NCBI RefSeq assembly: GCF_002804065.1
Contig: NZ_CP024955.1
Span: forward strand, 1,984,001 to 2,048,000
DNA: 64,000 nucleotides
Direction of reading: 5' to 3'
Source of the DNA: Kyrpidia spormannii
GTDB lineage: Bacteria; Bacillota; Bacilli; Kyrpidiales; Kyrpidiaceae
Positions 17,802 through 38,159 of this stretch are shown one piece after another. Below the pieces are notes generated by a model. That model was not told the DNA's origin. It made no database searches and worked only from the letters and a program-made list of their open reading frames with translations. Within the stretch, counting starts at the first letter, position 1; each line of letters begins with the position of its first letter. A program made the translations under genes and the position numbers.

Positions 17802-17880
17802 CGGCGGCACCTCGACACATCCCTTTGTGGCCCGCGTTACCCGCCGATGAAGCCCATCATCCGGATACCGCCCCTCCTGC

Positions 17881-17913: not shown

Positions 17914-17930
17914 GATAGCCGGCAAACGTT

Positions 17931-18770: not shown

Positions 18771-18955
18771 TCCTCATTTCCTCCCCTTTCTTTGAGAATC
18801 GGGATTCACCACAATGGTATGGCCGAGGTTCTTAAAACGAATCGGCCCCTGTCCAAGGCCGTCGCCCTGTTTTCTCCCCTTCCGCACACGTCCACACGGC
18901 GGGCTGCCCGTCTCTCATACACTGGCAACACCTCATCCCTTGGAGGTGGTGCCCC

Positions 18956-20985: not shown

Positions 20986-20997
20986 GGGGGGAGTCCT

Positions 20998-21720: not shown

Positions 21721-21726
21721 ACCGTC

Positions 21727-22641
21727 GTGAGCACCGTGTTGGTGACGGGAAGCCGGGGAACCCTCGGCAAACGCCTCGTCTCGGCCTTGCGGCAAACTGG
21801 TCACGATGTGTGGCAGTGCGACCTGCACCACACCGCTGAGCCTCAATATTTTCGCGCTGACGTGGGCAATTATCGCCAACTGGAGCGGGTGTTCGAGCAG
21901 GATTACGACTTCGTTTACCACTTGGCTGCAGAATTCGGGCGAATCAATGGCGAGGAGTATTACGACACCCTGTGGCAGACCAATGTCGTGGGCACTCGGA
22001 ATATCTTGGAATTTCAGCGGAAAAAGGGATTTAAGCTCATCTTTGCCAGTTCCTCGGAGATCTACGGGCAAAGCCGGGAGCCAGTCCTTGATGAAGATCT
22101 GCCGACTCGCCAGCCGGTCATTCCCCATAACGACTACGCCATGACCAAATGGGTGAATGAAGTGCAGATCATGAATTTTGAACAGCGTTACGAGGTGCCC
22201 GTCATGCGGTTGCGCCTGTTCAACGCCTACGGCCCAGGAGAATTTTATCACCCCTACCGCAGTGTGGTGTGCCTGTTCCTGTACCGGGCCCTCCACCGGC
22301 TCCCGTATACCGTGTATAAAGGCTACCACCGGGTCTTCATGTATGTGGACGACCTGATCGCGACGTTGGTCCGGTGCATCGATCGATTCCGCCCCGGAGA
22401 GGTGTACAACATCGGCGGACGGGAATACCGAAGCGTGCATGAATTGAGCGACAAAATTCTCGCCCTCACCGGGGCGTCGGAAGATCTTGTGACCTATCTC
22501 CCCGAAGATGCGCACAACACGGTCAACAAGCGCCCGAACATCGCCAGGGCCGAGCGGGATCTCGGCCACGATCCGAAGATCACCCTGGACGAAGGCCTCC
22601 CTTTGACTTTGGAGTGGATGCGGCAGGTGTATCACGTGTGA
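21727..22641 (+). CDS. NAD-dependent epimerase/dehydratase (SDR family)
   Basis: 304-residue extended SDR with VTGSRGTLGKRL, VYHLAAEFGRINGEEYY, ASSSEIYGQSREPV, the catalytic Tyr/Lys in DYAMTKWVNE and RLRLFNAYGPGEFYHPYR. It resembles the WcaG/GalE group of nucleotide-sugar epimerases. The GTG start follows AAAGGAGTGAACCGTC, six bases after the nucleotidyltransferase stop. It shares GTGA with the next glycosyltransferase. Confidence 0.85.
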   Translation: MSTVLVTGSRGTLGKRLVSALRQTGHDVWQCDLHHTAEPQYFRADVGNYRQLERVFEQDYDFVYHLAAEFGRINGEEYYDTLWQTNVVGTRNILEFQRKKGFKLIFASSSEIYGQSREPVLDEDLPTRQPVIPHNDYAMTKWVNEVQIMNFEQRYEVPVMRLRLFNAYGPGEFYHPYRSVVCLFLYRALHRLPYTVYKGYHRVFMYVDDLIATLVRCIDRFRPGEVYNIGGREYRSVHELSDKILALTGASEDLVTYLPEDAHNTVNKRPNIARAERDLGHDPKITLDEGLPLTLEWMRQVYHV

Positions 22642-23381
22642 GTGCGGTGGGAGCCGGAACGGGGAGTCCGCTCATCAGCGTGGTGGTGCCGGTGTACAAC
22701 CACGAGCGCTATATCTTTGAGTGCGTGGACAGCGCTCTGATGCAAGAGGGGGCTCCCCCCTTTGAAGTCGTGGTGGTGGACGACGGCTCCACCGACCGGA
22801 CGCCGCGCATTCTGCAAACCTTTGGGCCCCGTATCCAGGTGATTCGCCAGCCCAGATCCGGCGCCGCCACCGCGCTGAATCGGGGGTTCGCCGCCGCCCG
22901 GGCGCCCTACGTATGCTGGTTATCCTCAGACGACCGGTTTGAGCCGGGAAAACTCGCCGCTCAGTGGCAATACGTCACCCGTCGCCCCTGTACGGCCCTG
23001 TGCTATACGTCGTTTCATGTGATCGACGGCCACGGCGTCCGCCAGTATACGGTGGACTCACCCTGGGATTCGGACCGAAACCGCCTCTACGCCACCTTAT
23101 TGGAAGGTTGTTTTATTAACGGCTCCACCACGATCGTGCGGAAAGATGCCTTTTTCCAAGTCGGGGGATTCGATCCGGCACTGGTTCAAGGCCACGATTA
23201 CGACCTGTGGCTGCGGCTGTTTGAGCGATACGAGGTGGGATGTATCCCGGAACCGCTCTTGTCCTACCGGTGGCACGGGTCGAACATGAGCGCCAACCCC
23301 GCCGCCGACCGCTACTACAGTAATCTCGTGCGACAACGGGCTGCCCGTCGAAGACAACAGTTTGGAGGTGGTACGTCGTGA
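22638..23381 (+). CDS. Family 2 glycosyltransferase
   Basis: 247-residue GT-A enzyme: ISVVVPVYNHERYIFECVDS, FEVVVVDDGSTDRTPRIL, WLSSDDRFEPGK, GGFDPALVQGHDYDLWLRL and a basic C-terminus. The GTG at 22638 overlaps the upstream stop as GTGA. It probably adds a sugar to the polymer built by this operon. Confidence 0.85.
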   Translation: MSAVGAGTGSPLISVVVPVYNHERYIFECVDSALMQEGAPPFEVVVVDDGSTDRTPRILQTFGPRIQVIRQPRSGAATALNRGFAAARAPYVCWLSSDDRFEPGKLAAQWQYVTRRPCTALCYTSFHVIDGHGVRQYTVDSPWDSDRNRLYATLLEGCFINGSTTIVRKDAFFQVGGFDPALVQGHDYDLWLRLFERYEVGCIPEPLLSYRWHGSNMSANPAADRYYSNLVRQRAARRRQQFGGGTS

Positions 23382-24373
23382 ATATCGTCATCCCGGTGAT
23401 GAGCCTTCACCGGGGCGGGGGATGCCGGGTGATCGCCGAAATGGCCAATGGCTTGCAGGCCTATGGCCACCGGGTGTCCATCGTACTGTTGGAGAATGCA
23501 GAGCTGGCTTACGACGTCCGGGTGCCGATCATCCGCGTGCCGGCCCTGATCCCGGAAGTCCTGCCGGAAGCGGACGTTTACATTCCAAATTTTTACCCGA
23601 CCGTCATGCCCGCTTATCAAGCGGGAAAAGCTCGGGTCGTGCGCCTGTCCAACGGCTACGAACCCCTGTGGGTTCCGGATAAAGGAGCCGCCCTGGAAAC
23701 GTACCGGCTCCCCGTTCCCGTCCTGGCCATCTCCCGGGTGCTCCAGCAGCAAATCCGCCAGGCGGTAGGTCGCTCCAGTTATCTCGTCCAGCCCGGGGTC
23801 GACCCATCGGTATTTCGGCCCTACCCCGAGATTCCCCGGCGCAGGCACCGGGTCTTTTTCATCTATCGGGCCGAGAGTTACGGCTATTTCTATAAAGGAT
23901 CGGCAGATTTCTTTCAAGCGATGGATATCGTGCGCCGGGTGATCCCGGACGTGGAGATCGTGATGGTATCCACGGACGGGGTCGAGATTCAGACCGATTT
24001 ACCCTTCACCCTGGCCCGGGCGGACACCGACCGGGATATGGCCGAGCTCTACACAGGGAGCGACCTGTTCGTCTCGGCGTCCTGGTTTGAGGCTTTGTGC
24101 CTGCCCGCCCTTGAGGCCATGGCCTGCGGGACCCCCGTCGTCACCACCGATTCCGGAGGGGTGAGGGATTTTGCCGTGCCGGGCGAGAACTGCCTCATGG
24201 TCCCGCCCCGGTCCCCGGAACTTTTGGCCCGGGCGATCCTACGGGTACTCACTAACAATTTTCTCCGGGAGCGGTTGCGCCGGGCGGGGCTTCGCACTGC
24301 CGCCCAGTGGACTTGGCAGCGTTTTTATCGCCAAGTGGACGCCGCCCTCACCACCGCTTTGACCGCCTCTTGA
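23378..24373 (+). CDS. Family 4-type (GT-B) glycosyltransferase
   Basis: 331-residue GT-B enzyme. The N-terminal half has MSLHRGGGCRVIAEMANGL. The C-terminal half has VQPGVDPSVFRP and the donor-site motif SWFEALCLPALEAMACGTPVVTTDSGG. GTG start behind TTGGAGGTGG, overlapping the previous stop. It closes the six-gene operon. Its 3' end overlaps the convergent minus-strand glycosyltransferase by 49 bases. Confidence 0.86.
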   Translation: MNIVIPVMSLHRGGGCRVIAEMANGLQAYGHRVSIVLLENAELAYDVRVPIIRVPALIPEVLPEADVYIPNFYPTVMPAYQAGKARVVRLSNGYEPLWVPDKGAALETYRLPVPVLAISRVLQQQIRQAVGRSSYLVQPGVDPSVFRPYPEIPRRRHRVFFIYRAESYGYFYKGSADFFQAMDIVRRVIPDVEIVMVSTDGVEIQTDLPFTLARADTDRDMAELYTGSDLFVSASWFEALCLPALEAMACGTPVVTTDSGGVRDFAVPGENCLMVPPRSPELLARAILRVLTNNFLRERLRRAGLRTAAQWTWQRFYRQVDAALTTALTAS

Positions 24374-25323
24374 TACAGTCGGGTCCAGTGGGCCTCTCGG
24401 GCGGTCTCCAACCCTCCGGCGATCAAGTGGGTTCGCAGTGTGAGGTCTGTGAGGGCAAGTTGGATCATCCGGGCCAGCCTCTCAACATCACCAGGTGGGG
24501 CGAGCACGGCGTTGTACCCGGACACGGCGATTTCGTTCATACCGTCTCCATACACGCCGGCCACCGGGGTGCCGCAGGCCATCGCTTCCAGGACGGAAAT
24601 CGGGGCCCTTTCGCCACCCGCCGGATGAATGAACAGGTCCACGGAGTTGTACAGGAGGGCCAGCTGGTGATCGGGCAGCCGGCCGTGCAAGACCCAGCCT
24701 TCTCCGGGGGGCCGGACGCCCCCCCGGCAGAGAGCGTGACACTCCACCCCGGGCAGTGCCGATCTCACCCGATCCAGGGCGGCATACGCGACGCCGAGGC
24801 CCCGGGGCGGCAAGCCCGGGCCTTCGGGAGCGACAAGAAGCAACACCTTCTGGCCGACACCCGCGGGGCGGCGTTCCGGCCGCACTCGAAACACCGAAGG
24901 ATCGACCCCCGGATGCAACACCGTTGCGACCTTCCCGAATCGGGACCGTACAAGAGCTCCGATTGATTCCGAGGTCACCCACACCGCCGCCTCCCGGATA
25001 CTTCGTTCCGCAGCCGCAGTGTCAGGTACGTAGAAAGGGTCAAACCGCCCGAGAAAGCGAATCACCCGACCTCCGGCACAACGGGCGGCGACATCGAAGG
25101 ATTCAGTGTCCGCGGCCACCGCCACCTCCGACCCCTGAAGGTTATTCGGTCCGTCCGGAGCGATCCGGACCAGTGGACACTGCACCGGCCAGTCCACCGC
25201 CGCCGACTCCGGCACCGCCAGAGTCACCCGATGACCGGCGCTTTGAAGTCCATGTGCCAGCTCGATCACCGTACGGGCATGGCCGCCATATCCAAGATCC
25301 TTCGCCACCACCGTAACCCGCAT
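24325..25323 (-). CDS. GT-B glycosyltransferase
   Basis: 332-residue enzyme beginning MRVTVVAKDLGYGGHARTV, with VLHPGVDPSVFRV and the donor motif ERAPISVLEAMACGTPVAGV. It is related to the plus-strand neighbour (both have HPGVDPSVF / QPGVDPSVF). The ATG at 25321-25323 lies behind GGGGGGGTGAAC; an upstream in-frame extension has no such signal. Tail-to-tail overlap of 49 bases with the neighbour. Confidence 0.85.
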   Translation of the reverse strand: MRVTVVAKDLGYGGHARTVIELAHGLQSAGHRVTLAVPESAAVDWPVQCPLVRIAPDGPNNLQGSEVAVAADTESFDVAARCAGGRVIRFLGRFDPFYVPDTAAAERSIREAAVWVTSESIGALVRSRFGKVATVLHPGVDPSVFRVRPERRPAGVGQKVLLLVAPEGPGLPPRGLGVAYAALDRVRSALPGVECHALCRGGVRPPGEGWVLHGRLPDHQLALLYNSVDLFIHPAGGERAPISVLEAMACGTPVAGVYGDGMNEIAVSGYNAVLAPPGDVERLARMIQLALTDLTLRTHLIAGGLETAREAHWTRLYQEAVKAVVRAASTWR

Positions 25324-25340
25324 GTTCACCCCCCCCGTCG

Positions 25341-26090
25341 CTACCCTGGCATCGGACTGACCACCCGAATCCATAACGCTGCCCGCCCCGTCACCCGAAC
25401 CCAAGCTGTCGGCGATCCTCCGGCATGCCGCCCAGGAAGTGAATATATCAGGACGTGCGCCTTCCAGTCGGAGGTGGTGACGTGCCTGGGCTCATCGAAC
25501 TCAAGAAGCCCCTCGGGATCACCCCACTCACCCGAAGAAGCCTGCCCCACCTTCGGCAGATCGGCCATGAGAGGTGCACGTGTCTGAGGTCCCGGGAACA
25601 CCTCTTCCCCCAGGATCAGCGTAAAGGGGATCTCCCGGCGTTCGTAGTGGAGGGGTGTGGATTCAAGTGAGAATTCCCCCGGGGCGGGGCCCACCGCCGT
25701 CACTCGAAGGGTCCCTTCCACACGCACTCCGCTGCCGAAACGAGGTATGGCCCTTTGGACCTCGACCTCCGCCTCCCACTGTGCCCTTTCACCGATCTCC
25801 CCCATGACACCGGGCACCGGGGCCAGCCAGTCGACTTGCCAGACCTGTTCCAACATGTCGGCCGCCATCCACCGCGTGGTACCCTCCTCCCACCGATACA
25901 GAACCACAGGCCTCACCCGGTCCATGAGGCCGTCCTTTCCCGCATCGGCAGCCTCTCCTTCCCCCACTTCCACCACCTGGGGGTCCCTAGGGGCCCGACG
26001 AAACCCATCGTCGCCCGCGGCCCCCCCGTCGCCGCGGATCTGCACAAATCGCTGCAGCCAGGGACCTGCGGCCTTTTTCCGGCGTTTCAC
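25341..26090 (-). CDS. Hypothetical protein of the glycan locus
   Basis: 249 residues, not recognised. A basic start (KRRKKAAGPWLQRF) is followed by VRPVVLYRWEEGTTRWMAADMLEQVWQVDW and WEAEVEVQRAIPRFGSGVRVEGTLRV. It ends with VLIYSLPGRHAGGSPTAWVRVTGRAALWIRVV. Many short beta-strand-like segments and no signal peptide suggest a surface or coat beta-sandwich. The GTG at 26088-26090 has AGGGGGGACCAGG upstream; a GTG at 26148-26150 would add 20 residues. It sits 17 bases upstream of the glycosyltransferase gene on the same strand. Confidence 0.55.
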   Translation of the reverse strand: MKRRKKAAGPWLQRFVQIRGDGGAAGDDGFRRAPRDPQVVEVGEGEAADAGKDGLMDRVRPVVLYRWEEGTTRWMAADMLEQVWQVDWLAPVPGVMGEIGERAQWEAEVEVQRAIPRFGSGVRVEGTLRVTAVGPAPGEFSLESTPLHYERREIPFTLILGEEVFPGPQTRAPLMADLPKVGQASSGEWGDPEGLLEFDEPRHVTTSDWKAHVLIYSLPGRHAGGSPTAWVRVTGRAALWIRVVSPMPG

Positions 26091-26313: not shown

Positions 26314-26901
26314 ATGCCTCTTGTTTGGTGGATCGGAGGGACACTCCTCGCCCTGCTTCTCATCGCGGTTCTCGCCATGGGCGTGTTTATACTATGGCGG
26401 TGGTGGCGGGGGTACATGTCGAGCTATAAATTCAAATTTCACGAACCGAACGTGCCCCTGAAGAAAAAGGAAATCAACCATAATTTCAAATTCATGATCG
26501 GCCTGGAGGTGGAGCAGGTGAAAATGTTCCACTACCAAGCCAGCAAACTGCATCGGGCCGGGAGCTCCGACTACCTGGTGGCGTTTCTCGACGCGGCCGC
26601 CCGTATCGAACACGTGCATGTGCGCCGTTTGAGATCTCTCTACCATCACCTTTACGGTCGTTCCGCCCCAAACCGCCTGGGCCACGTGGCCGGATGGGTG
26701 ACTATCGCCATGAGCATGGTTTTCCCCGAACGATGGATGGCCAAATGGGACGCCTGGACAGAACAACTGGCCATCGCCCATTATGAACGAGTGGTTCGCC
26801 AAACCACCGAACCGGCGGTGCGGAAAATGTTTCTGGAACACGCCGCAGACGAGCGCTCTCACCGGCAGTTGTTCAAAAAATGGGAGTTGAATGCCCGGTG
26901 A
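26314..26901 (+). CDS. Membrane-anchored ferritin-like di-iron protein
   Basis: 195 residues. One N-terminal membrane helix (about residues 6-27, followed by RWWRGY) is joined to a four-helix domain. Likely metal ligands are E67 (GLEVEQVKMFHYQ), E99xxH102 (RIEHVHVRRL), E158 (AHYERVV) and E180xxH183 (ADERSHRQLF). This is the E, ExxH, E, ExxH pattern of COQ7/ferritin-like di-iron proteins. Substrate or redox role is unknown. Its stop overlaps the next gene's GTG, so it is coupled to an FMN protein, suggesting a joint redox function. Confidence 0.72.
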   Translation: MPLVWWIGGTLLALLLIAVLAMGVFILWRWWRGYMSSYKFKFHEPNVPLKKKEINHNFKFMIGLEVEQVKMFHYQASKLHRAGSSDYLVAFLDAAARIEHVHVRRLRSLYHHLYGRSAPNRLGHVAGWVTIAMSMVFPERWMAKWDAWTEQLAIAHYERVVRQTTEPAVRKMFLEHAADERSHRQLFKKWELNAR

Positions 26902-28370
26902 ATGCGTGGCTGGTTTTTTTGAGCGCTTCCCTGGTCGGCACCCTCCTGACCGTACTCCTCGCCGTTCTCGTTCTGTGGCGAACGGGACGCCGCTGGATCG
27001 ATCTTGTGGCGGACCGGACTCTGGACATCCTTGTGACGGATCCCTACCGTCATAATCTCTGGGAGTTCATCAGCGCCAGCCGGCGCAGCGGCGTTCAACT
27101 CCTTATCGAGAACAGCATGCGGGCCGCCACCGGTGAAGTGATCAAACGCCCGATGGGTTCACCCAAACCCTCCCCCCAATTCGACGCCATCGGCTTCACC
27201 CCGGCCCAGGTCACCCGGGCGGCCTCTGCGGGGGTCATCGACCTGTCCGTGGCCATCGGGCCCGGCGCCCAGCGCCCTCTTCACCTCGCCATCCCCATCC
27301 TGATCGGTGGCATGGGGTACGGCGTCGGCATCACCCGGCAAGCGTGGAGCGCCTTGCTCGGCGGGGCCACAGCGATGGGAACGGTGGTCAACACCGGAGA
27401 AGGAGTCGTTTACCTCGAGGATGTCGATGCAGCAGGCGGACGTTTTATTCTTCAATGGAGTCGGGCGCACTGGGCAAAGGAACCGCAGTTGGTCCGGGCC
27501 TGCTCCGCAGTGGAGATTCATTTCGGCCAAGGGGCCTCCACGGGGCTTGGGATCCACATCCCCCCGGAGGAACTGAAAGAAGCCCGATCTGCCATGAAGC
27601 TTGGACCTCGGGAATGGGCGCGGATCGGAGAGCAATTTCCAGGGGTACACGGGGTGCGGGATGTTTCGCGCATGGTCACGTTTCTGCGGGAAATGTCTAA
27701 CGGGGTTCCCATTGGAGCCAAAATCGCTCCGGGCGACGACATCGAAGCCTGCCTCGAGGCGTTGCTCGAGTGTGGCGTGGATTTTATCACCATAGACGGG
27801 GCTCAAGCGGGCACCAAAGGCAGCGAGCCCATCGCCGAGGATGATTTTGGCCTGCCCACCTTTTTCGCCTTGAGCCGAGCCCGGCGATATTTTGACGCGC
27901 ATCGGGTCAAGGACGTCAGCCTCATTATATCCGGCGGACTCGCCACCCCGGGACATTTTTTAAAAGCGATCGCCCTTGGCGCCACGGCCGTCGCCATCGG
28001 ATCCCCCGCCCTCTACGCGGCCAGCCATGGCCAACTCCAGAAAGCCCTGCCTTTCGAACCTCCGACCGAACTGGTGCTCATGGTGGGAAAACGCACAGAC
28101 CGGTTCGATCCCCTGGAGGGGGCCCGTTCTCTCGCGCTGTTCCTCAAATCCTGTGCCGATGAGATGGCCATGGGCATTCGGGCCATGGGGAAAATGTCCA
28201 TCCGGGAAGTCAGCGCCTCGGACCTGTTTGCCCTGGATCCGGAAGTGGCCCGAACGGCGGGCATCCGCTACGCCGGGGAGGCCCGCTGGGATCTGTACCG
28301 AAAAGATCGAACCCGAAGGCGCGACAACGTATGGTCGCAGAAAAGTTCCGGTTGGAGGGAGCGGTCATGA
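26898..28370 (+). CDS. FMN-binding glutamate synthase-domain protein with membrane anchor
   Basis: 490 residues: an N-terminal membrane helix (WLVFLSASLVGTLLTVLLAVLVLW) and then a TIM-barrel related to the FMN/synthase domain of glutamate synthase. Visible motifs are IPILIGGMGYGVGITRQAW, STGLGIHIPPEEL, DFITIDGAQAGTKGSEP and IISGGLATPGHFLKAIALGATAVAIGSPALYA. I see no Cys cluster for a [3Fe-4S] centre and no glutaminase domain, so it is unlikely to be a standard glutamate synthase. GTG overlaps the ferritin-like stop (GTGA); the next gene overlaps its stop (ATGA). Confidence 0.8.
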   Translation: MNAWLVFLSASLVGTLLTVLLAVLVLWRTGRRWIDLVADRTLDILVTDPYRHNLWEFISASRRSGVQLLIENSMRAATGEVIKRPMGSPKPSPQFDAIGFTPAQVTRAASAGVIDLSVAIGPGAQRPLHLAIPILIGGMGYGVGITRQAWSALLGGATAMGTVVNTGEGVVYLEDVDAAGGRFILQWSRAHWAKEPQLVRACSAVEIHFGQGASTGLGIHIPPEELKEARSAMKLGPREWARIGEQFPGVHGVRDVSRMVTFLREMSNGVPIGAKIAPGDDIEACLEALLECGVDFITIDGAQAGTKGSEPIAEDDFGLPTFFALSRARRYFDAHRVKDVSLIISGGLATPGHFLKAIALGATAVAIGSPALYAASHGQLQKALPFEPPTELVLMVGKRTDRFDPLEGARSLALFLKSCADEMAMGIRAMGKMSIREVSASDLFALDPEVARTAGIRYAGEARWDLYRKDRTRRRDNVWSQKSSGWRERS

Positions 28371-28905: not shown

Positions 28906-29214
28906 TCACTGGCCGTTAAAAACGATGATCACGTCAGTGGGCCGCCCGGGTTCGGCGGATTGAAACACCACCCGGGCATAGCGGAGAAAAAGTCTGGGAA
29001 CTAAGGCCACCGCCCCTTGAGGAATGACATTCTCCAACAGGCCATCCGCAATCAGCGTCCCTTGATCGGGACTCACCTGGACGCCCACAGTGGCGGGGGC
29101 CGTACCCGCATTTATCACCACAAAGGTGTAGATATTGAGGCCTGCCAGCTCAATAAAACGAGATCCCGTGAGTTGATCGGAAGTTGTGTACGTTTCAACC
29201 GACTGGCGGAACAT
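28906..29214 (-). CDS. DUF6385-like small surface protein
   Basis: 102 residues that match the C-terminal domain of the divergent neighbour at 29431-30207: SRFIELAGLNIYTFVVINAGTAPATVGVQVSPD and ALVPRLFLRYARVVFQSA here correspond to NLGTYSFFVYNAGPNPANLNVEIS and VLVPSRFLKYTRLSYASA there. This beta-rich domain (DUF6385 as I recall) occurs in spore-surface associated Firmicute proteins. ATG at 29212-29214 with GAGGGGATTTAC upstream, and a sigma-K like promoter 40 bases further. Confidence 0.68.
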   Translation of the reverse strand: MFRQSVETYTTSDQLTGSRFIELAGLNIYTFVVINAGTAPATVGVQVSPDQGTLIADGLLENVIPQGAVALVPRLFLRYARVVFQSAEPGRPTDVIIVFNGQ

Positions 29215-29251
29215 GTAAATCCCCTCGTTTATCGATAATCAGACTTCCATT

Positions 29252-29277
29252 TATGCTATGTCCCCTTCCACCCCCGT
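29252..29277 (-). promoter_or_regulatory. Sigma-K-like promoter of the small DUF6385 gene
   Basis: On the minus strand CATAGCATA (29252-29260) matches the sigma-K -10 pattern CATANNNTA exactly, and an AC (29276-29277) lies 15 bases upstream (16-17 is usual). Transcription would start about 30 bases before the ATG. It supports late mother-cell expression but remains a short-motif prediction. Confidence 0.42.
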
Positions 29278-29430
29278 GACCCTTACATTTCACCGGTTTA
29301 TTTCCTCCCAGACCATGTGCACATTTTCCGATCTGGCGGTGTTCGTCCACACCTTTATGAACATGCTTCCGTATCCTGTCTCCCAGCGATGGCTCCCCAC
29401 CATCGACTTTCAGGGAAAGGATCGATTGTT

Positions 29431-30207
29431 TTGCCAAACTTCGCTGTTTTTAACCCAAATCCCGACGACCTGCGGGCACTGATTTTCGGGCGAGATACCA
29501 CCAATACCAGCCGAATCCTCGCGACTGACCCCTCGGGCAACCTCACCACCGTGGCCTTGGACGGCACCATCACCAGCGTCCTCGGCACAACGGTCACCGC
29601 AGGAACGATCAACAATCTCTTGAACGGCACCATTTCCTCTGTCCTGGGAGCAACCGTCACGGCAGGAACGCTCTCCAACCTCTTGGACGGGACCCTTTCG
29701 AACATTTTAGGGGCCACCATCACCGCCGGTACCCTGAGCAACCTGCTCAGCGGGACCATCTCCAGCGTTCTTGGGGCCACGTTGACCGCCGGAACATTGT
29801 CGAACCTCCTGGACGGAACCATCTCTAACCTACTGGGGGCGACGATCACCGCGGGGACCCTGAGCAGCGTCACCTCGATATCGCAAAAGAGTTTCACCGA
29901 GATCGATTATCCTCCTACACCCACGGCAGATGCCCTTACGCCCCTTCCTCCCGTGACCACAGCAAATCTAGGAACCTATTCCTTCTTTGTCTATAACGCG
30001 GGCCCCAACCCCGCCAATCTAAACGTTGAGATCAGCGCGAATGGGACCAACTGGTATATCGATGTGTCTTCACCCGGCTTGGCTGCTGGGTCTGTAGACG
30101 TGCTCGTTCCCAGCCGTTTCTTAAAATACACGCGGCTGTCGTACGCTTCGGCGACGACGGGGGCCTCCACCACCATTGACGTATTTTTCAACGCCCAGGG
30201 AACCTGA
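29431..30207 (+). CDS. DUF6385-like protein with five 21-residue repeats
   Basis: 258 residues. The start PNFAVFNPNPDDLRALIFG and DPSGNLTTV resemble DUF6385 proteins. The middle holds five 21-residue Thr/Ser/Gly-rich repeats of the form GTISxVLGATxTAGTLSNLLD. The C-terminal domain has YSFFVYNAGPNPANLNVEIS and RFLKYTRLSYASATTG. No signal peptide. I chose the TTG at 29431 behind GGGAAAGGATCGATTGTT; upstream in-frame sequence is unlike the family. It lies directly before the SunS-like glycosyltransferase genes, so its Ser/Thr-rich repeats are possible glycosylation targets. Confidence 0.68.
   Translation: MPNFAVFNPNPDDLRALIFGRDTTNTSRILATDPSGNLTTVALDGTITSVLGTTVTAGTINNLLNGTISSVLGATVTAGTLSNLLDGTLSNILGATITAGTLSNLLSGTISSVLGATLTAGTLSNLLDGTISNLLGATITAGTLSSVTSISQKSFTEIDYPPTPTADALTPLPPVTTANLGTYSFFVYNAGPNPANLNVEISANGTNWYIDVSSPGLAAGSVDVLVPSRFLKYTRLSYASATTGASTTIDVFFNAQGT
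29563..29877 (+). repeat. Five tandem 63-bp repeats
   Basis: Five in-frame units of 63 bases (29563-29625, then every 63 bases to 29877) each encode a 21-residue unit with GT-I/L-S-x-V/I/L-LG-A-T-x-T-AGT-L/I-x-N-LL. Units differ by synonymous and a few conservative changes. An array of this kind may vary in copy number between strains. Confidence 0.88.
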
Positions 30208-30237
30208 TCCCCGGGCGTTCCATAGGAGGGATGCCCG

Positions 30238-32253
30238 GTGAGCAAACCCTTGCTCGGCGTGATGATGTTGGCAAAAGATGAGGAGAAAACGATTTTGCGA
30301 AGCCTGGAAAGCACCCGCAGTGTGGCTGACGAATGGATCGTGGTAGACACCGGATCCCGGGACCGAACGGCGGAGGTGGCCAGGAGCTTCGGAGCCCGGG
30401 TGATTCACGTCCCTTGGGAGGACGATTTTTCGAAAGCGCGCAATGCGGGCCTCGCCCATGTTCAGGCCGAGTGGGTCCTGTGGCTAGACGCCGACGAGGA
30501 GCTGAGGGACGCGGATTCGAGCTGGCTGGAGGTGCTTCGTCATACAGAGGCGAAAAGCTTTTGGCTCGATATTGAAAATCTCCTCGGCCCATCGATGGAC
30601 GACCGGTTGATCCACCGAGTCCCCAGGTTGTTTCGGCGAGAACCCGGAGTGTATTTTCAAGGGCGCATTCATGAACAAATCGTTTGGGACCAAGAAGGCA
30701 TTTCAGAAACGCAGATAGCCCCTTGGCGGATTGTCCACCATGGGTATCGCCCCGAGGTCATCGCCCGGCGGGATAAGGTCCGGCGCAATCTCCGGCTTTT
30801 AAGGCTTGCGCTTCGGGATCTCCCCCGGCACCCGTTTTACACGTATCAAGTCGGGGTCACCTGGTGCCAGGCCGGCCGCCTGGACCGGGCTGCCCTGTGG
30901 CTCAGCCGAGCGGCCTCTTTGACGCCACTTCAGGCGCCGTACCGCCCCACCCTCTTTCGAGACCTGGGGATGGTCTGGCTCGCCCTGGGGAAATTTCGCG
31001 ACGTCGAGTTGACACTGCGGCCGGAGCTCGAGCGCTACCCGAAGTACGCCGATCTTTTTGTGATATTCGCCGACGCCCTGCGGGCTCAAGGGTTGCGGGA
31101 GGAGGCGCTGAAGGCGTATCTGCAGGCAGCGGCCTGTCCTCCCCCCGGTGCCCACGTCGGCAGCGCGGGGATCAACAGCTTCCGCCCACTCCACGCGGCG
31201 GCCCAGCTGTGCCTGGACCTCGGGCAGTTGCAAGAGGCAGAGCAGTGGGTACGCCAGGCCTTGGCGGCCCGGCCGGGGTGGGAGCCGGCCTTGGAAACGC
31301 TGGCCGAAATTCTCGCGGCCCGGGATGTACCAGAGGGCGATCTCGTCAAAGCATTGGCCTCCTGTGCCGGAACACCGCCGGACCAGCGGAGCCTGGTGCG
31401 GGCGCTACTGCATATTGGGGCCTACGGCGAGGTCATCGGGCTCCTAGATTCTGAAGATACCTCTCTCGGCAGTGAAAACCGGCCGCTGCGAGTTCAATGT
31501 CTCGTGGCTTTGGGTCAATGGCGGGAGGCGTGCCAGATAGTGGAACTCAGTATCCATTCGGGAGACCGGCAAGTCCCTCTGGGCGAGGAGGAGATCATGG
31601 ACTACGCCTTGGCCCGGTGGGCTCAGGATCAATCCCTCGACCGCAGACTGGAACTTCCCCCGGTCTATCAAAGCATCGACGCCAGGCTCATGGGGAGCCC
31701 CGCATCCCCGGACACTCAAAGCCACGCGGCAATTGGACCGGACATCCTTCGGCCCCTGATCCAACGGGCGGTTCAACACCGCTTGATTCCCTTGGCGGAA
31801 GATCTGGCCGCCCTCCACAGCAACGGGATGGATCTGTTTCTCGCCAAGACCCTGTACCGTGAAGGATGGGTCTATCTCGCCGCAGACCGCTTGCTCCGTC
31901 TTCTTACCCGGCGCGAGTTGGACGCCGAGGGGCTGTTTCTCTTGGGAGAGATGCTCTACGACAAGGGACATTGGGATCAGGCGGCGGAATTGTTCGAGCA
32001 AAGTGCAGGTCTCGGGTTTTCCCGGGCCCGGCCGGCCGCTGCCGCGGCCGCCCTTCAGTCCGCCAAGAGGATGCTGGAAGAAGCCGAGGCTCTCCGACCG
32101 AAAAGGGGTGGGTTCGCGGAGGAGCGCAGGGCTGTCGGGCGGGCATTGGAACTTCTCGATGGAATCGGGTGGCACACCCACTGGCGGGGCCGGACAAGGA
32201 GGAATCGACATGAGTCGGCCGCAGATCTCCCTCTGCATGATCGTCAAGAATGA
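30238..32253 (+). CDS. SunS-like family 2 glycosyltransferase with helical-repeat tail (1)
   Basis: 671 residues. The GT2 domain (about 1-220) has GVMMLAKDEEKTILRSLES, WIVVDTGSRDRTAEVARSFGARV, WEDDFSKARNAGL and WLDADEELRD. The SunS-type block LFRREPGVYFQGRIHEQIV follows, then HHGYRPEVI. The rest is TPR-like helical repeats (for example RPTLFRDLGMVWLALGKFRDVELTL, LFLLGEMLYDKGHWDQAAELFEQSAG). GTG behind GGAGGGATGCCCG, 30 bases after the repeat protein. SunS-type enzymes glycosylate peptides, so a protein acceptor is plausible. Its end overlaps the next start by 44 bases. Confidence 0.83.
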   Translation: MSKPLLGVMMLAKDEEKTILRSLESTRSVADEWIVVDTGSRDRTAEVARSFGARVIHVPWEDDFSKARNAGLAHVQAEWVLWLDADEELRDADSSWLEVLRHTEAKSFWLDIENLLGPSMDDRLIHRVPRLFRREPGVYFQGRIHEQIVWDQEGISETQIAPWRIVHHGYRPEVIARRDKVRRNLRLLRLALRDLPRHPFYTYQVGVTWCQAGRLDRAALWLSRAASLTPLQAPYRPTLFRDLGMVWLALGKFRDVELTLRPELERYPKYADLFVIFADALRAQGLREEALKAYLQAAACPPPGAHVGSAGINSFRPLHAAAQLCLDLGQLQEAEQWVRQALAARPGWEPALETLAEILAARDVPEGDLVKALASCAGTPPDQRSLVRALLHIGAYGEVIGLLDSEDTSLGSENRPLRVQCLVALGQWREACQIVELSIHSGDRQVPLGEEEIMDYALARWAQDQSLDRRLELPPVYQSIDARLMGSPASPDTQSHAAIGPDILRPLIQRAVQHRLIPLAEDLAALHSNGMDLFLAKTLYREGWVYLAADRLLRLLTRRELDAEGLFLLGEMLYDKGHWDQAAELFEQSAGLGFSRARPAAAAAALQSAKRMLEEAEALRPKRGGFAEERRAVGRALELLDGIGWHTHWRGRTRRNRHESAADLPLHDRQE

Positions 32254-33553
32254 GACAGAGTACCTGGACGCCTGTCTCACCAGCGTTCGGGGCGCCGTAG
32301 ACGAAATCATCGTGGTGGATACCGGTTCGGATGACGGCAGCGCTGAGTTGGCCATGCGCCACGGGGCGCGGGTGATCCGTAAACCCTGGCGGGACGACTT
32401 TGCCCGGGCCCGAAATGCCGGTCTCGACCGGGCCCGGGGCGACTGGATTCTCGTGCTCGATGCGGATGAGCGCCTGGAGCCTGGCGGTGCGGCCGGGCTG
32501 CGTACCGTGGCACAAGAGCCGGAGGCCGAGGCTGTGCTGATCCAAATCTGTCATGAGCCCGGCCCCGGTCAAGAGCCCACCGTCATCAACCCGGTGGTTC
32601 GTTTGTTCCGGAACCGGCCGGAATACCGATTCGAAGGCAGGGTTCACGAACAGATCACTCCTTCCATCTGCCGGGCCCGGCCGGAAGCCCGCTTTATCGT
32701 CAGTGAAGTCCGAGTTCGCCACCTGGGCTACCACCCGGAAACGGTGAACAGCCGCAACAAGGTCGCCCGGAACTTGAGGCTTCTTCGCCTGGAGATCCGC
32801 GACCACCCGGACCGCCCCTTTCATTGGTACAATCTCGGGGTCGAATACGTGCGATCCGGAAGACTGCCGCGGGCTCTGGCCTGTTTCCGCCGGGCGAGGC
32901 GGGGGATCGAACCGGAGCGGACCCCCTGGGCGCACCTTCTGTATAAAACCGAAGCCCGGTGTCTCTACGCCGCCGGCCAGCCCGGGGATGCCCTCGCCCT
33001 CATTCAGGAAGGTCTGCGGCTATTTCCGAAGTATACAGATTTATACTGCCTGGCCGGCCTCATTGCTCTGGACCTGGGCCGGTGGGGGGCGGGCACAGAA
33101 TTTCTGCGCAAGGCTGTGGAGCTCGGCCCTGCTCCTTCGATGTTCCATCGAGAAGAAAGAATGGGAACGTATCTTCCCTGTTTCGCCCTCGGTGCCGCCG
33201 CGGAACAACTCCGGGTATACGACGCCGCCCTGATGTGGTTTAAAGCCGCGCTGACCTTTCAGCCGGCCCTGCGGCCGGCCGCCCTTCGAATCGCGGCTAT
33301 TCTCCGTGTCATCCGGGGGGAAAAGGCGGCTTCGGATTTTTGGGCCACCTGGGCCGCAGGCGATCCGAAGGGCCGGCAAACAAGGAGGATCGGTTCCACG
33401 ACTTTATCACCTGGGGTAAGCCGGCGTCTGGCGGATGCGGAGCGGCACCTGTGCAGGATAACAGACTCTACACCCTTTCAATCCTTGATTCTCGCCGTTC
33501 GCCTGGAGATCGCTCAGATACAACTCGGGGAGGTGGCAAGTCATGCCCTTTGA
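32210..33553 (+). CDS. SunS-like family 2 glycosyltransferase with helical-repeat tail (2)
   Basis: 447 residues, paralogous to the previous gene: ISLCMIVKNETEYLDACLTSV, EIIVVDTGSDDGSAELA, WRDDFARARNAGLDRARGDW, VLDADERLEP and RLFRNRPEYRFEGRVHEQI. Then come TPR-like repeats ending near AALRIAAILRVIRGEK. ATG at 32210 behind AAGGAGGAATCGAC; an in-frame reading far upstream is only the shadow of the previous gene. It overlaps the third paralogue by 11 bases. Confidence 0.83.
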   Translation: MSRPQISLCMIVKNETEYLDACLTSVRGAVDEIIVVDTGSDDGSAELAMRHGARVIRKPWRDDFARARNAGLDRARGDWILVLDADERLEPGGAAGLRTVAQEPEAEAVLIQICHEPGPGQEPTVINPVVRLFRNRPEYRFEGRVHEQITPSICRARPEARFIVSEVRVRHLGYHPETVNSRNKVARNLRLLRLEIRDHPDRPFHWYNLGVEYVRSGRLPRALACFRRARRGIEPERTPWAHLLYKTEARCLYAAGQPGDALALIQEGLRLFPKYTDLYCLAGLIALDLGRWGAGTEFLRKAVELGPAPSMFHREERMGTYLPCFALGAAAEQLRVYDAALMWFKAALTFQPALRPAALRIAAILRVIRGEKAASDFWATWAAGDPKGRQTRRIGSTTLSPGVSRRLADAERHLCRITDSTPFQSLILAVRLEIAQIQLGEVASHAL

Positions 33554-35096
33554 CATCTCGCTCTGCATGATTGTGCGCAATGAAGAAGACTTTTTGCCAC
33601 GCTGCCTGACTTCCGTCGCCCCCTACGTGTCAGAGATCATCATGGTGGACACCGGATCTACAGACCGGACCCGGGAGATCGCCGCTTCCTTCGGAGCGAA
33701 GATTCTCGACATCCCCTGGGCGGACGATTTTTCCCAAGCTCGCAACGCGGGGCTGGAAGCCGCTCGGATGCCGTGGATTCTGGTAATGGACGCCGATGAA
33801 ACCCTCGTGCCTCCGGATTCGGGGTACCTGGGCCGCCTCCTGGCGGACCGAGATGTAAAAGGATATTTTTTGCAGATCCTCCATCGGATCGGGGACGGTT
33901 CTTCAGGCGAATATGTGACGGATGCGGCCTGCCGCCTGTTCCGGAATGACCCGCAGATTCGATTTCAAGGGGTCATCCACGAGGAAACCGCCTCTGCCAT
34001 CCGGGCGGCCTATGGCGATGGGATTCGGTTCTCCGACCTGGTCCTTTGGCACGAGGGGTATGTCGATGAGGTGATCCGCAGGAGAAAGAAAAATGAGCGC
34101 AACGAGCGCCTGTTGAAAAGAGCCCTAGCTCAGCGTCCCGAGGATCCCGTGCTCCTTTACGCCTGGGGAACGGAGCAGTTCCAACAAGCCCGTTATAAGG
34201 AAGCACTGACAGCCTTTGAGCGGGCCCTGGAGTCAGCCCCCGTCTTTACGGGATACACGTCAGACTTGGTGATGAAAACGGCTTACTGCCTCCGTGAACT
34301 GGGCCGCCGGCGGGAGGCCGCACAACTGCTCCGGGAAGCGGCCGCTTTTTACCGCGATTTTGTCGATCTTTTCGAGTGGAGGGCCATCCTGCACCTGGAC
34401 GACGATCGGGCGGACCTGGCTCTGCCCCTCCTGGACCATTGCCTGGAGTTGGGCCCTTGTGACGGCCGCTACAGTTCGGCGTCCGGGGCGGGAACGTATC
34501 GAAGTCATTTTCTAGCCGGTATCGCCTGTGAACGGTTGTGGTTATGGGAGGAGGCGATGGACCATTATCAACGGGCTCTCCAGACTCACCCCGGCTATGA
34601 ACCGGCGGGGCGCCGGCTGGCCGAATTGAAATGTTTGTTCGATATGAACAGCGCTCAAGGTGGAAATCAGTCGGTGCCTATGAACACTGAAAACCCGGGG
34701 GCTCCGGTGCCCCCTCCCGACCGGGGACCGGCGGATCCTTCGATAGACCTTCTCCCTCCCAGGCCGTTACATCTGCTGGGCGTTTCCCGCGAACAAATCG
34801 CCACGTGGGCCCGGCAGTATTTGAGCCTCTCCTCCGAGCCGACGTACCAAGAAGCCCTGTTGGCCGGATGGTTGGCCCTGGAAAGCGACCTCGACACCCT
34901 GGCTGCCAAATGGTTCGCCCTCGCCGCCGGGATGTACCCCCATCGGGCTGCACCCCGGGTTGGGCGATTCCTGGCAGCGGTGCGCACCTTCCAGCGCCTT
35001 GTCCCCGACGTGGCAGCCAGAGTTCTCCCGGGACCCCTGCCATGGGCCCTCCACAGCCGACAGCTCCTGGCCGCCCTCTCCGAACCCCCGTTCTAG
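33543..35096 (+). CDS. SunS-like family 2 glycosyltransferase with helical-repeat tail (3)
   Basis: 517 residues, third paralogue: ISLCMIVRNEEDFLPRCLTSV, EIIMVDTGSTDRTREIAASFGAKI, WADDFSQARNAGLEAAR, MDADETLVPP and RLFRNDPQIRFQGVIHEE. TPR-like repeats follow to about residue 370. A Pro/Asn-rich linker (about 385-410) then leads to a C-terminal helical domain. ATG behind GGGGAGGTGGCAAGTC. It ends eight bases before the convergent minus-strand glycosyltransferase. Confidence 0.83.
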   Translation: MPFDISLCMIVRNEEDFLPRCLTSVAPYVSEIIMVDTGSTDRTREIAASFGAKILDIPWADDFSQARNAGLEAARMPWILVMDADETLVPPDSGYLGRLLADRDVKGYFLQILHRIGDGSSGEYVTDAACRLFRNDPQIRFQGVIHEETASAIRAAYGDGIRFSDLVLWHEGYVDEVIRRRKKNERNERLLKRALAQRPEDPVLLYAWGTEQFQQARYKEALTAFERALESAPVFTGYTSDLVMKTAYCLRELGRRREAAQLLREAAAFYRDFVDLFEWRAILHLDDDRADLALPLLDHCLELGPCDGRYSSASGAGTYRSHFLAGIACERLWLWEEAMDHYQRALQTHPGYEPAGRRLAELKCLFDMNSAQGGNQSVPMNTENPGAPVPPPDRGPADPSIDLLPPRPLHLLGVSREQIATWARQYLSLSSEPTYQEALLAGWLALESDLDTLAAKWFALAAGMYPHRAAPRVGRFLAAVRTFQRLVPDVAARVLPGPLPWALHSRQLLAALSEPPF

Positions 35097-35104
35097 AAGA
35101 CATT

Positions 35105-36244
35105 TCAATCCACGGCCCTGGGAGACCGGGCAGCCCAACCGGCCAACCAAGGTCTGAGCACCCGGCTCCACCGGAGCCGCCAGCGAGACCGGTCAAAAGC
35201 CCGGGCCGTCTCCCGGGCTTTGCGCCCCAGGGCTCTACGCAGACCTCGATTCTCGATGCAGCGCCCCACCGCCGCTTCCAACGCTTCAAAATCTGGCGGC
35301 ACCAACAGGCCGTTATACCCGTCGATCACCAGATCGTTCAACCCCCCGACATCGGTAGCCACCACCGCCGCCCCGCAACTGAGAGCTTCTAAACAAGAAA
35401 ACGAAGTTCCCTCGGAAAAAATGCTGGGGATCACCACGATGTCGGCCCTTTGATAGGCGCGGACCATCTCCGAAAAGGACAGCACATGGTGAAGGAGGCG
35501 ATGGCGGTGGGGGTGTTCTTTCATCCAGAATCGAAACACCCGGGTTATAGGATTACCTTCCACCACATCCCCCGCAAACTCCACCACCACATCCGGATGC
35601 CGGGCCAGAATCCGGTCTGTTGTGATCATCATGGGAATCACGCCCCGCTCCCAACTGATGCGCCGGGGAAAGAGTACCCGCACTTGATCAGCCCGCCGCA
35701 TCCCGGGGTCAGGGCGAAACCTGCGAGTATCCACATGATTCGGGATAAACACCAATTTTCGCGGATCGTTAAAGGTGCACACCGACCGGCAGTAGGTCAC
35801 AAAATGTGAATCCACGGACACGATGCGCTGCAGATGGTCTAACGCCCCTTGGATGGCACCGGCCACCTGGGCTTTCTCCTGGGCGGAGCCGTCGCCCCGA
35901 TCCCAGTTGATTCCATGACAAATTCCAATACTGTGGGGGCGGAAGCGAAGGGGATGCCAGAGGAAACTGGCATAAATCACAGGCCCATCCACGGCATCCG
36001 CCATCTGTTCAAACACCTTCACGGCATCGTCGGGGCCACATGCGTGTCCATACACATCGATCCCGTCGACCTGACTGGAAAATGCACCTTGAAAGGACAG
36101 TTGGTGGATTTCCGGCCGCATTCCCAAGTCCTGAAGCAAAAGGGCCAGATCAAACATGTAGCGTTCCAACCCGCCCGCAAAAACCCTTTCAAATCGGCCA
36201 TTGTACCCGTCGACAAAGCTGTGCGTCAGAATCCCCACTTTCAT
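35105..36244 (-). CDS. GT-B glycosyltransferase
   Basis: 379-residue GT-B enzyme. The N-terminal part has GGLERYMFDLALLLQDLGMRPEIHQ and SIGICHGINWD. The C-terminal part has VRVLFPRRISWERGV, IPSIFSEGTSFSCLEALSCGAAVVATDVGG and DGYNGLLVPPDFEALE. The ATG at 36242-36244 shares ATGA with the upstream gene's stop. It is the last of a three-gene minus-strand unit with a GT2 and a TPR-type protein. Confidence 0.86.
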   Translation of the reverse strand: MKVGILTHSFVDGYNGRFERVFAGGLERYMFDLALLLQDLGMRPEIHQLSFQGAFSSQVDGIDVYGHACGPDDAVKVFEQMADAVDGPVIYASFLWHPLRFRPHSIGICHGINWDRGDGSAQEKAQVAGAIQGALDHLQRIVSVDSHFVTYCRSVCTFNDPRKLVFIPNHVDTRRFRPDPGMRRADQVRVLFPRRISWERGVIPMMITTDRILARHPDVVVEFAGDVVEGNPITRVFRFWMKEHPHRHRLLHHVLSFSEMVRAYQRADIVVIPSIFSEGTSFSCLEALSCGAAVVATDVGGLNDLVIDGYNGLLVPPDFEALEAAVGRCIENRGLRRALGRKARETARAFDRSRWRLRWSRVLRPWLAGWAARSPRAVD

Positions 36245-36972
36245 TCTCCGTCTTCCCTCCACTCCACCAAACGGGGATTCGGTTCGAGGATCGAGCGGTA
36301 CTGGGCAAGGCTTCCCCAGCGGCCGTCGGGATCCAGGGCCATATAGCGCTCATATTTTTGCTGAAGATACTCCCTGGGGCCCACCCACCCGAGATGTTTG
36401 ATCCGAATCGGCGAACACAGGCCGGGAAGGGGGCCATAGGATAGGGGAACGCGGGGGACGTGGAGATCCATCGGCGGAAAAAAGTAATGATACCCCGGGA
36501 GGAAGCGGACCAAGGTAACGGTGTAACGTTTGTGAAGGTTCCAATGCTCGTCCTCTCGGTAATGGGTCAGGCCTCCCCACATGTCGAACATCCGGAAGGC
36601 CACCCAATCGTACTGGTCCTGATCGATAAGGGCCCGGATCTCTTCCTTCGCGCGGTCCTCATATAATTCGTCCGCATCCACGGCGAGTAGCCAATCGGGG
36701 TGGGTGGAGACCGCCACATCCCAGAGCAGGGACCGCAAGTTCCACTCCCGCCGGAATTGAGATTCGGGCAGAACGACTAATTTAACGACTTTCTTAAAAT
36801 CGCGACAAAGGTCGGGGGTCCCGTCGGTACTGGCGTCATCCACGATCACCACGTCATCGACAAATTCCGACAGGCACCGAAGCACGGTGTCCAAATAGCG
36901 GTCCGCTTCATTGCGAACCTGCATCATGGCCGTCAAGCGATTACCGGAGGATTTGCGCACAGGACGAGTCAT
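36241..36972 (-). CDS. Family 2 glycosyltransferase
   Basis: 243-residue GT-A enzyme: LTAMMQVRNEADRYLDTVLRCL, VIVDDASTDGTPDLC, EWNLRSLLWDVA, LAVDADELYEDRAKEEI, and a C-terminal part rich in aromatic residues (PGYHYFFPPMDLHVPRV, IKHLGWVGPREYLQQKYERY). The ATG shares ATGA with the upstream TPR-type gene. Acceptor unknown. Confidence 0.84.
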   Translation of the reverse strand: MTRPVRKSSGNRLTAMMQVRNEADRYLDTVLRCLSEFVDDVVIVDDASTDGTPDLCRDFKKVVKLVVLPESQFRREWNLRSLLWDVAVSTHPDWLLAVDADELYEDRAKEEIRALIDQDQYDWVAFRMFDMWGGLTHYREDEHWNLHKRYTVTLVRFLPGYHYFFPPMDLHVPRVPLSYGPLPGLCSPIRIKHLGWVGPREYLQQKYERYMALDPDGRWGSLAQYRSILEPNPRLVEWREDGE

Positions 36973-38159
36973 GACGCTCTTTCCCCACGGCGGATTTGCT
37001 CAAGAAGACTTTCCGCCTCGTCCATTTCAAGAATGTAACCAAGGGCGTTAGGGTCTTCGGCGGCGGCCCGGAGAAAATGGTGAATCGCCCCGGGGCGGTC
37101 TCCTTGAAGCCAGTAGAAAAAACCCTCAAGAATCTCGACCGATCGGTGCACCGAATGGGTTTTGCAATCCGCCAGTGCGACCTCGCGAAAAGCCTGGTCC
37201 GGATAACCTGTCCGCAAAGCGATTTCCAACCGGAGTCGTCCCGCTTCCTCCCCATCTGTTTCACTCAGCACTTCCCGGGCCGAACGCAGATCATCATTGA
37301 GCAGAAAGAGCCGGGCCCGGACCAGCGCCTGCCGTCCATCCTCCAGCCACGTCAGCAAACGTTCATACTCCCATTTGGCAGCTTGGTCCAGCGCAGTCAC
37401 CCCGTAGGCCTGAACCGCCTCCTCCAAACGCCCCTGCTTCACCAGAATAGCGGACAAAAACCGGTAATGCGTGACGAGACAATCGGCACGCCCCGACGCC
37501 ACGGCCCGTTCAAAAGAAGCAAGAAGGTCCTCCCGGGCCGCTGGATCCTCCAAGAGGTACCGGTAGGCCGCCGAGAAATAGAGGGCCTTTTCGGCGATTT
37601 CTTCCCGCCCCACAAAGCCTTGATATTCCTTCAGTCGCGAGTGCCACTGTTCCCTTTCCAGCCCTCCGAGTTCCTCAGGATTTTCCAATGCCCCTATAAC
37701 CCGCGACACCCAGTGCACCGCTTCTTGCCGGCAGCGGTATGGATCCCAAAAAAATACCGTTGGCCGCTGAAAGCACCATTGAAGATACTGAGTTTCCGAT
37801 CGAACAAATACAGCGTCTGCAGCAGCCGCAACGAGGTTCGCCAAGCGGCGCTGGGCGGCGGTGCTGAAAGAAATATGAGCCATCACGGCAACCGTGCGCT
37901 CCGGGCGCCACCCCCCGAAGGCAGACACCCACAGCGGTTCGGTCACGATGGCCGTGGTTTCATCGGCTGGCAGTCGCCGGCACTCTTCAATAGAGATGTC
38001 ACGAACGACATCCTCAACATCGGCATTCTCTTCTAGACCCGAACCGCCAGAGTCAGACCCTGCGCCTACATAATACCGGCACTCGGCCGGGAGCACCTCC
38101 AACAGGTCGCGATAGGGAAAATGGGACAGTGTCTCCGATCCAAAAGCCACCACCTTCAT
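36969..38159 (-). CDS. Hypothetical protein with helical repeats, linked to glycosyltransferases
   Basis: 396 residues. The N-terminal 150 residues (MKVVAFGSETLSHFPYRDLLEVLP, AIVTEPLWVSAFGGWRP, VFVRSETQYLQWCFQRP) have a Rossmann-like look of a degenerate GT-B or CgeB-like domain. From about residue 190 the sequence is TPR-like (EKALYFSAAYRYLLED, RFLSAILVKQGRLEEAVQAYG, VEILEGFFYWLQGDRPGAIHHFLRAA). ATG behind AAGGAGGGGCGAAGA. First gene of the three-gene minus-strand unit. CgeB-like proteins act in spore outer-layer glycosylation in Bacillus; that link is inference. Confidence 0.6.
   Translation of the reverse strand: MKVVAFGSETLSHFPYRDLLEVLPAECRYYVGAGSDSGGSGLEENADVEDVVRDISIEECRRLPADETTAIVTEPLWVSAFGGWRPERTVAVMAHISFSTAAQRRLANLVAAAADAVFVRSETQYLQWCFQRPTVFFWDPYRCRQEAVHWVSRVIGALENPEELGGLEREQWHSRLKEYQGFVGREEIAEKALYFSAAYRYLLEDPAAREDLLASFERAVASGRADCLVTHYRFLSAILVKQGRLEEAVQAYGVTALDQAAKWEYERLLTWLEDGRQALVRARLFLLNDDLRSAREVLSETDGEEAGRLRLEIALRTGYPDQAFREVALADCKTHSVHRSVEILEGFFYWLQGDRPGAIHHFLRAAAEDPNALGYILEMDEAESLLEQIRRGERAS

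Follow-up and report, generated by a model that had tools for sequence, protein, structure and literature searches.

Which molecule is modified by three tandem glycosyltransferases whose genes stand directly behind the gene of a repeat protein? This question is raised by a locus at positions 28906–38159 of a 64,000-nucleotide stretch of DNA from the thermophilic spore-former Kyrpidia spormannii (contig NZ_CP024955.1, positions 1,984,001 to 2,048,000). The whole stretch is hereafter called the window, and coordinates count from its first nucleotide. The central members of the locus are a protein with five Ser/Thr-rich repeats and a DUF6385 domain (PF19912), and three enzymes, here GTa, GTb and GTc, in which a glycosyltransferase domain is joined to a tail of tetratricopeptide repeats (TPRs). 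The explanation that we favour, and hold to be reasonably probable, is that the locus is a dedicated late-sporulation module for protein O-glycosylation, for which we infer the reaction, the sugar, the modified sites, the division of labour and the location on the spore. Such a module would probably be a hitherto undescribed means of coating the surface of spores with sugars, and the gene partnership behind it recurs in many spore-formers.

The repeat protein and the enzymes encoded beside it

The presumed acceptor is encoded at 29431–30207 (+ strand; 258 amino acids, TTG start) and matches PF19912 with 103.3 bits, while a short divergent sister (28906–29214, − strand; 102 amino acids, no repeats) matches it with 75.8 bits; both exceed the Pfam gathering score of 26.8 bits. 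The TTG at 29431 is most likely the start, because the N-terminus common to all relatives begins there: they open with [M/L/V]PN[FY]..FNxNPDxLRxxIFG at the matching position, conserved in the window protein as MPNF..FNxNPDNLRTLIFG. Five 21-residue units of the GTISSVLGATVTAGTLSNLLD type follow (29563–29877, + strand), with the consensus GTxxxVLGATxTAGTLxNLLx and 7–9 Ser or Thr per unit. Units 2 and 4 are identical at 20 of 21 positions but encode 14 of these 20 residues with different codons; the repeats are thus kept by selection on the protein and are not a recent duplication. A different repeat number in the nearest relative (G398) was considered and rejected, as its longer frame is a mere upstream open stretch and both proteins have five units. 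Neither the two window DUF6385 proteins nor the related repeat proteins listed contain cysteine. AlphaFold models the repeats as weakly predicted short strands resembling a beta-solenoid (predicted local distance difference test, pLDDT, 50–60), and the DUF6385 domain (29887–30204, + strand; residues about 153–258) as a confident beta-sandwich, a predicted jelly-roll with pLDDT mostly >90.

Only 30 nucleotides separate the stop of the repeat gene (30207) from the start of GTa (30238–32253, + strand; 671 amino acids). GTa overlaps GTb (32210–33553, + strand; 447 amino acids) by 44 nucleotides, and GTb overlaps GTc (33543–35096, + strand; 517 amino acids) by 11. Each begins with a GT-A domain of family GT2 (PF00535; 69.7 bits in GTa) and continues into TPRs, in GTa as a long tail. 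The anatomy given by the initial annotation, namely a repeat protein, a 30-base gap, three overlapping enzyme genes and, convergent to them, a GT-B enzyme, a GT2 enzyme and a helical-repeat protein, agrees with the coordinates and Pfam scores.

The same annotation had called the enzymes SunS-type. The GT2 and TPR architecture stands, and membership of the SunS family does not: the SunS model TIGR04195 gives 87.4, 74.5 and 81.5 bits against a cut-off of 350 and matches only the N-terminal 200–230 residues, and GmaR is nearer. GTa–GTc have the architecture of GT-A plus TPR protein O-glycosyltransferases of the SgtA/GmaR kind, a GT2 domain with a DxD motif followed by TPRs. Their nearest solved structure is the glycosyltransferase domain of Listeria GmaR (22ao; 101 bits for GTa, 119 for GTb and 117 for GTc), followed by ThuS and SunS at 60–83 bits. 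The motifs DTGSxD, DxDE and IHE are kept in all ten enzymes that we aligned, the window's three included, and the invariant columns comprise DTGSxD, both acidic residues of DxDE, and HE. Because the nearest solved relatives are GmaR, SunS and ThuS, GTa–GTc are best read, from sequence comparison, as enzymes that glycosylate proteins directly. Since the presumed acceptor contains no cysteine, S-linkage is excluded on this substrate, and we take O-linkage on Ser/Thr as the model, by analogy with SgtA or GmaR.

It had also been suggested that the TPR tails read the 21-residue spacing of the repeats. This finds no support, as the periods found beside the same enzyme family range from 9 to 50 residues. 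A TPR tail acting as a ruler for repeat number was likewise rejected: rho values for repeat length against enzyme length were 0.16, −0.04 and 0.34, with no relation to how long GTa or GTb is, and the value of 0.34 carries p = 0.008 with the kinship of the sequences uncorrected.

The pairing of DUF6385 with such enzymes is widespread. DUF6385 is present in 56 of 398 genomes across Bacillota, and we surveyed 54 loci of about 20 kilobases around DUF6385 genes in 54 genomes, taken from this sample and from nearer relatives. Strong GT2–TPR genes were found at least once in 40 of them, at least twice in 30 and at least three times in 22, and in 37 loci an enzyme gene lay within 500 base pairs of the DUF6385 gene. 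None were found in six unrelated regions of the same genomes, which form a small control. Twenty fresh loci, chosen after the model had been fixed and mostly from another class, gave enzymes in 17; the other three lie at contig ends or have a degenerate or partial DUF6385 gene. The co-occurrence that the initial annotation had named as a check thus holds in both sets. The same gene order recurs in 80 named loci from Paenibacillus, Cohnella, Kyrpidia, Bacillus methanolicus and Hydrogenibacillus, and among those of full length the enzymes are present in 52 of 52, with three or more in 44.

The enzymes also appear to be dedicated to these loci. The surveyed loci had themselves served for the iterative training of our first enzyme profile; the fresh loci guard against this circularity, as does a profile of ten enzymes from four loci, run over 26 genomes with a strong match set at ≥225 bits. 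In the 14 closed genomes with DUF6385, 28 of 31 strong matches lie inside the DUF6385 locus, or 19 of 22 once the three genomes behind the profile are set aside. Genomes with DUF6385 have a strong match in 13 of 14 cases, those lacking it in 2 of 12 (Fisher p = 1.7e-4). When 118 catalytic domains from three- and four-gene operons are placed in a tree, 10 changes of position label are needed, compared with 60.8 when labels are shuffled, and each operon position appears to be its own old orthologous enzyme lineage. Kept as separate lineages, the three enzymes are therefore unlikely to be redundant. Some genomes encode two glycosyltransferase domains in a single fused frame (of 1207 amino acids in G100, for instance), which fits action on one substrate.

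The stalks are variable: tandem repeats precede the DUF6385 domain in 37 of the 54 loci, and their sequences are unrelated between lineages. Stalks with adjacent enzymes contain 28.1% Ser/Thr, and those without contain 18.8% (p = 0.0095, with only six proteins in the latter group), an enrichment that lends weak support to the favoured explanation.

Sporulation and known spore-surface systems

The initial annotation took a sigma-K-like promoter on the sister gene as a pointer to late sporulation, and the surveys back it. This site (29252–29277, − strand) reads AC-N15-CATAGCATA and ends 37 nucleotides before the ATG; it is kept in the nearest relative, and two others have CATANNNTG, with the CATA core kept. 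We searched for the −10 pattern CATANNNTA within 120 nucleotides upstream of genes, and for the full motif AC-N15-17-CATANNNTA. The −10 pattern precedes 30 of 99 DUF6385 genes but only 39 of the 675 remaining genes in these loci, an enrichment of about fivefold whose p-value (1.5e-11), like the others for promoters, is optimistic since the sequences are related, though the loci span many families. The full motif with the −35 AC precedes 19 of 99 and 20 of 675, respectively. Restricting the comparison to genes with intergenic DNA upstream leaves 27 of 76 against 35 of 352, and in the fresh loci the −10 pattern precedes 8 of 35 DUF6385 genes and 9 of 134 others (p = 0.009). Consensus patterns for sigma-E, sigma-G and sigma-A upstream of DUF6385 genes showed no clear enrichment. 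In addition, among well-assembled genomes SpoIVA is present in all 47 with DUF6385 and in 258 of 309 without it (p = 0.0006), and K. spormannii strain FAVT5 sporulates in stationary phase (PMC7248562). Hydropathy analysis found no signal peptides or membrane segments in any of the eight proteins of the locus, and, as far as the sequences tell, this absence of export signals is as expected for coat or exosporium proteins made in the mother cell.

The locus had been thought to have no described counterpart, yet a precedent exists in Clostridioides difficile, where sgtA lies directly upstream of bclA3 and SgtA, a GT-A plus TPR enzyme, modifies BclA3 repeat peptides in vitro with beta-O-linked N-acetylglucosamine at Thr (and Ser) (PMC7157674). 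In both cases the gene of a cytoplasmic GT-A plus TPR enzyme adjoins that of a Ser/Thr-bearing repeat protein, which is on the spore surface for BclA3 and would be spore-located, by our reasoning, for DUF6385. The C. difficile system has one enzyme of 358 amino acids with four TPRs, acting on collagen GPT repeats, whereas the Kyrpidia locus has three orthologous enzymes of 450–700 amino acids, a non-collagen stalk, a DUF6385 head and extra convergent glycosyltransferases. GmaR likewise joins GT-A to TPRs and modifies a protein directly, but its substrate is flagellin, it has a second role as antirepressor, and no flagellar genes lie beside the Kyrpidia enzymes. SunS and ThuS (7msn, 7msk) share the GT-A fold and a helical-repeat C-terminus and act on peptides; their acceptor is Cys in small bacteriocins, in contrast to the Cys-free Kyrpidia substrate.

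Among spore-surface proteins, BclA and F-BclA of the Bacillus cereus group (PMC11952670) combine an N-terminal anchor motif, a repeat stalk of variable length and a C-terminal jelly-roll, with glycosyltransferase genes nearby. They differ in their collagen GXY stalk and domain family, as the Kyrpidia protein has PF19912 and repeats that do not follow the collagen-like GXY pattern. Its constant plan begins with a short N-terminus that is conserved, continues in a repeat stalk that varies and ends in a predicted jelly-roll head; from sequence and model this looks like the BclA plan without the collagen. The modelled domain also matches Ena1B (7a02; VIA Z 11.3, root-mean-square deviation 2.4 Å over 96 residues), Ena1C, Ena2A and Ena3A (Z 8.8–9.8) and the F-BclA tip (9h38; Z 8.5). 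The Ena1/2/3 (PF13157) and F-ENA (DUF4183) proteins resemble DUF6385 in their jelly-roll, which for DUF6385 is predicted, and in a link to spores, but the Pfam models for both families gave no match in the two window DUF6385 proteins, and a sequence search for PDB relatives of the domain found none that convinced. Judged on the models, the likeness of DUF6385 to Ena and F-BclA is a shared jelly-roll and not proof of kinship. DUF4183, the F-ENA partner, was found in none of 20 genomes searched, nearly all of them with DUF6385; PF13157 was found in none of 18, a result that carries no weight as its control was likewise silent. We found no mention of DUF6385 in the literature, searches on Paenibacillus spore glycoproteins included, subscription journals and preprints being mostly outside the scope of these searches.

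Weighing the explanations

Several observations weigh against a dedicated module. DUF6385 proteins do not need such enzymes, as 14 of the 54 loci have none nearby. The repeat gene lacks a sigma-K-like site of its own in the window, where only the divergent sister has one. The unrelated XepA (Z 12.0) and PirA (Z 11.3) tie with Ena1B in the structural comparison, the jelly-roll fold being common, and the difference in stalk Ser/Thr fell to p = 0.044 after the new loci were pooled. A TxT-rich beta-solenoid could moreover need its threonines for structure alone, and certain enzyme-adjacent stalks contain only about 14% Ser/Thr. The last two points also speak for a reading to which we give a minor share of our belief, that the enzymes glycosylate another protein (flagellin, the sister DUF6385 protein or another coat protein) and that the repeats serve only as a structural stalk of beta-solenoid form. 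TxT ladders are typical of structural solenoids, the repeats are modelled as beta strands, albeit at low confidence, and the closest relative of known structure, GmaR, both glycosylates flagellin and acts as a regulator. However, nearly all enzyme-bearing genomes have the enzymes beside DUF6385 genes, flagellar genes were not seen adjoining them, and enzyme-free loci tend, if weakly, toward stalks poorer in Ser/Thr.

The jelly-roll invites another thought, namely that the glycosyltransferase cluster makes a spore-coat polysaccharide and that unglycosylated DUF6385 proteins bind this glycan in the manner of lectins. Fold neighbours of the domain do include lectins and carbohydrate-binding modules (BC2L-C, PLTL, CBM86), a cluster of sugar-nucleotide and glycosyltransferase genes lies upstream at 16812–25404, and other glycosyltransferases are often near DUF6385 loci. 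We nevertheless consider this unlikely, given that the nearest solved relatives of GTa–GTc modify proteins or peptides, that neither the enzymes nor the DUF6385 proteins have membrane segments, and that a protein acceptor is suggested by the TPR tails and by how strictly the enzyme genes adjoin the repeat gene. True SunS- or glycocin-type S-glycosylation of cysteine has in its favour that TIGR04195 is the best NCBIfam match (75–87 bits), but with scores far under the cut-off, no cysteine in the window's DUF6385 proteins or in the related repeat proteins listed, and no glycocin precursor seen adjoining the genes, we regard it as very improbable.

In the O-glycosylation module that we favour, the DUF6385 proteins would be made as soluble cytoplasmic proteins in the mother cell, in the sigma-K window and together with the enzymes, and the Ser/Thr-rich stalk of the longer one would be the acceptor for the three co-encoded GT2–TPR enzymes. 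The acceptor would be held by the TPR tails and modified on Ser/Thr by the GT-A domain, with nucleotide sugars as direct donors. The three enzymes, unlikely to be redundant, would initiate and extend a glycan or take different sites, and the convergent GT4, GT2 and Rossmann–TPR proteins would probably add outer sugars or finish the glycan. The glycoprotein would then be displayed on the spore, probably anchored to its surface by the conserved N-terminal motif and with the jelly-roll as outer head. Genomic evidence and the enzyme family carry the first half of this chain, and for the rest we infer the reaction, the sugar, the order and the place.

If this explanation is true, many Bacillota (Paenibacillus, Cohnella, Kyrpidia, Bacillus methanolicus) would have a spore-surface glycoprotein system outside the collagen-BclA model, and the unstudied family DUF6385 would gain a probable role. 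Three orthologous GT-A plus TPR enzymes acting on a simple, countable repeat would offer a system for studying how TPRs choose acceptors, and the same set would allow one to ask how several enzymes share one substrate. A bolder extension, which we put forward as quite speculative, is that DUF6385 proteins make up a new and widespread kind of glycosylated fibre or fibril on the surface of spores. These would carry jelly-roll heads on non-collagen stalks, polymerise or anchor through the MPNF..FNxNPD N-terminus, and replace BclA and F-ENA where DUF4183 is absent, the glycan being built stepwise by three or four protein glycosyltransferases dedicated to it.

Neighbouring genes and variants among relatives

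Behind GTc, the convergent genes encode a GT4 glycosyltransferase of the GT-B type (35105–36262, − strand; 385 amino acids; PF00534, 74.2 bits), a small GT2 (36241–36972, − strand; 243 amino acids; PF00535, 40 bits) and a protein whose N-terminal half is Rossmann-like and whose C-terminal half is helical and TPR-like (36969–38159, − strand; 396 amino acids; model pLDDT 87), for which structural comparison with the PDB gave no good match. Of 56 related loci that leave room downstream, 51 have the small GT2 and 45 each have the GT4 and the TPR protein, and the order is constant wherever GT4 and GT2 are both found. The upstream cluster at 16812–25404 contains a GT2, a UDP-glucose/GDP-mannose dehydrogenase, two NAD-dependent epimerases, a nucleotidyltransferase and further glycosyltransferases, and could supply nucleotide sugars to the module. 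Inside it, a 279-residue protein (17931–18770, − strand) with a Pro/Thr-rich tail scores 21.8 bits for DUF7852, marginal against the cut-off of 22, and is possibly another coat protein. A rubrerythrin-like gene followed by one for a membrane-anchored, glutamate-synthase-like flavin mononucleotide protein (26314–28370) adjoins the DUF6385 genes here and in two relatives (L097 and L099).

The DUF6385 proteins themselves vary. In one genome (G214; L073:2512–3453) the domain follows Cys-bearing 16-residue repeats (VCQTEAVPISQV) with one GT2–TPR gene nearby, and this is the one lineage where, from the repeat sequence, S-linked glycosylation is conceivable. A distant relative (L093:13761–15128, − strand) has collagen-like GPPGPPGPP repeats before the domain, in a frame whose upstream part is probably not all coding; this combination would, as read from the sequence, form a direct architectural link to BclA. 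At L068:8766–9593, L060:9959–10951 and 13 other loci, the sister DUF6385 protein has a long repeat-free N-terminal region instead of repeats, which we take to resemble a DNRLRE-type domain. Many Paenibacillus loci, and L124:8492–9019, encode a short sister whose N-terminus is extended by a Lys/Arg/Cys-rich stretch like those of cross-linked spore-coat proteins.

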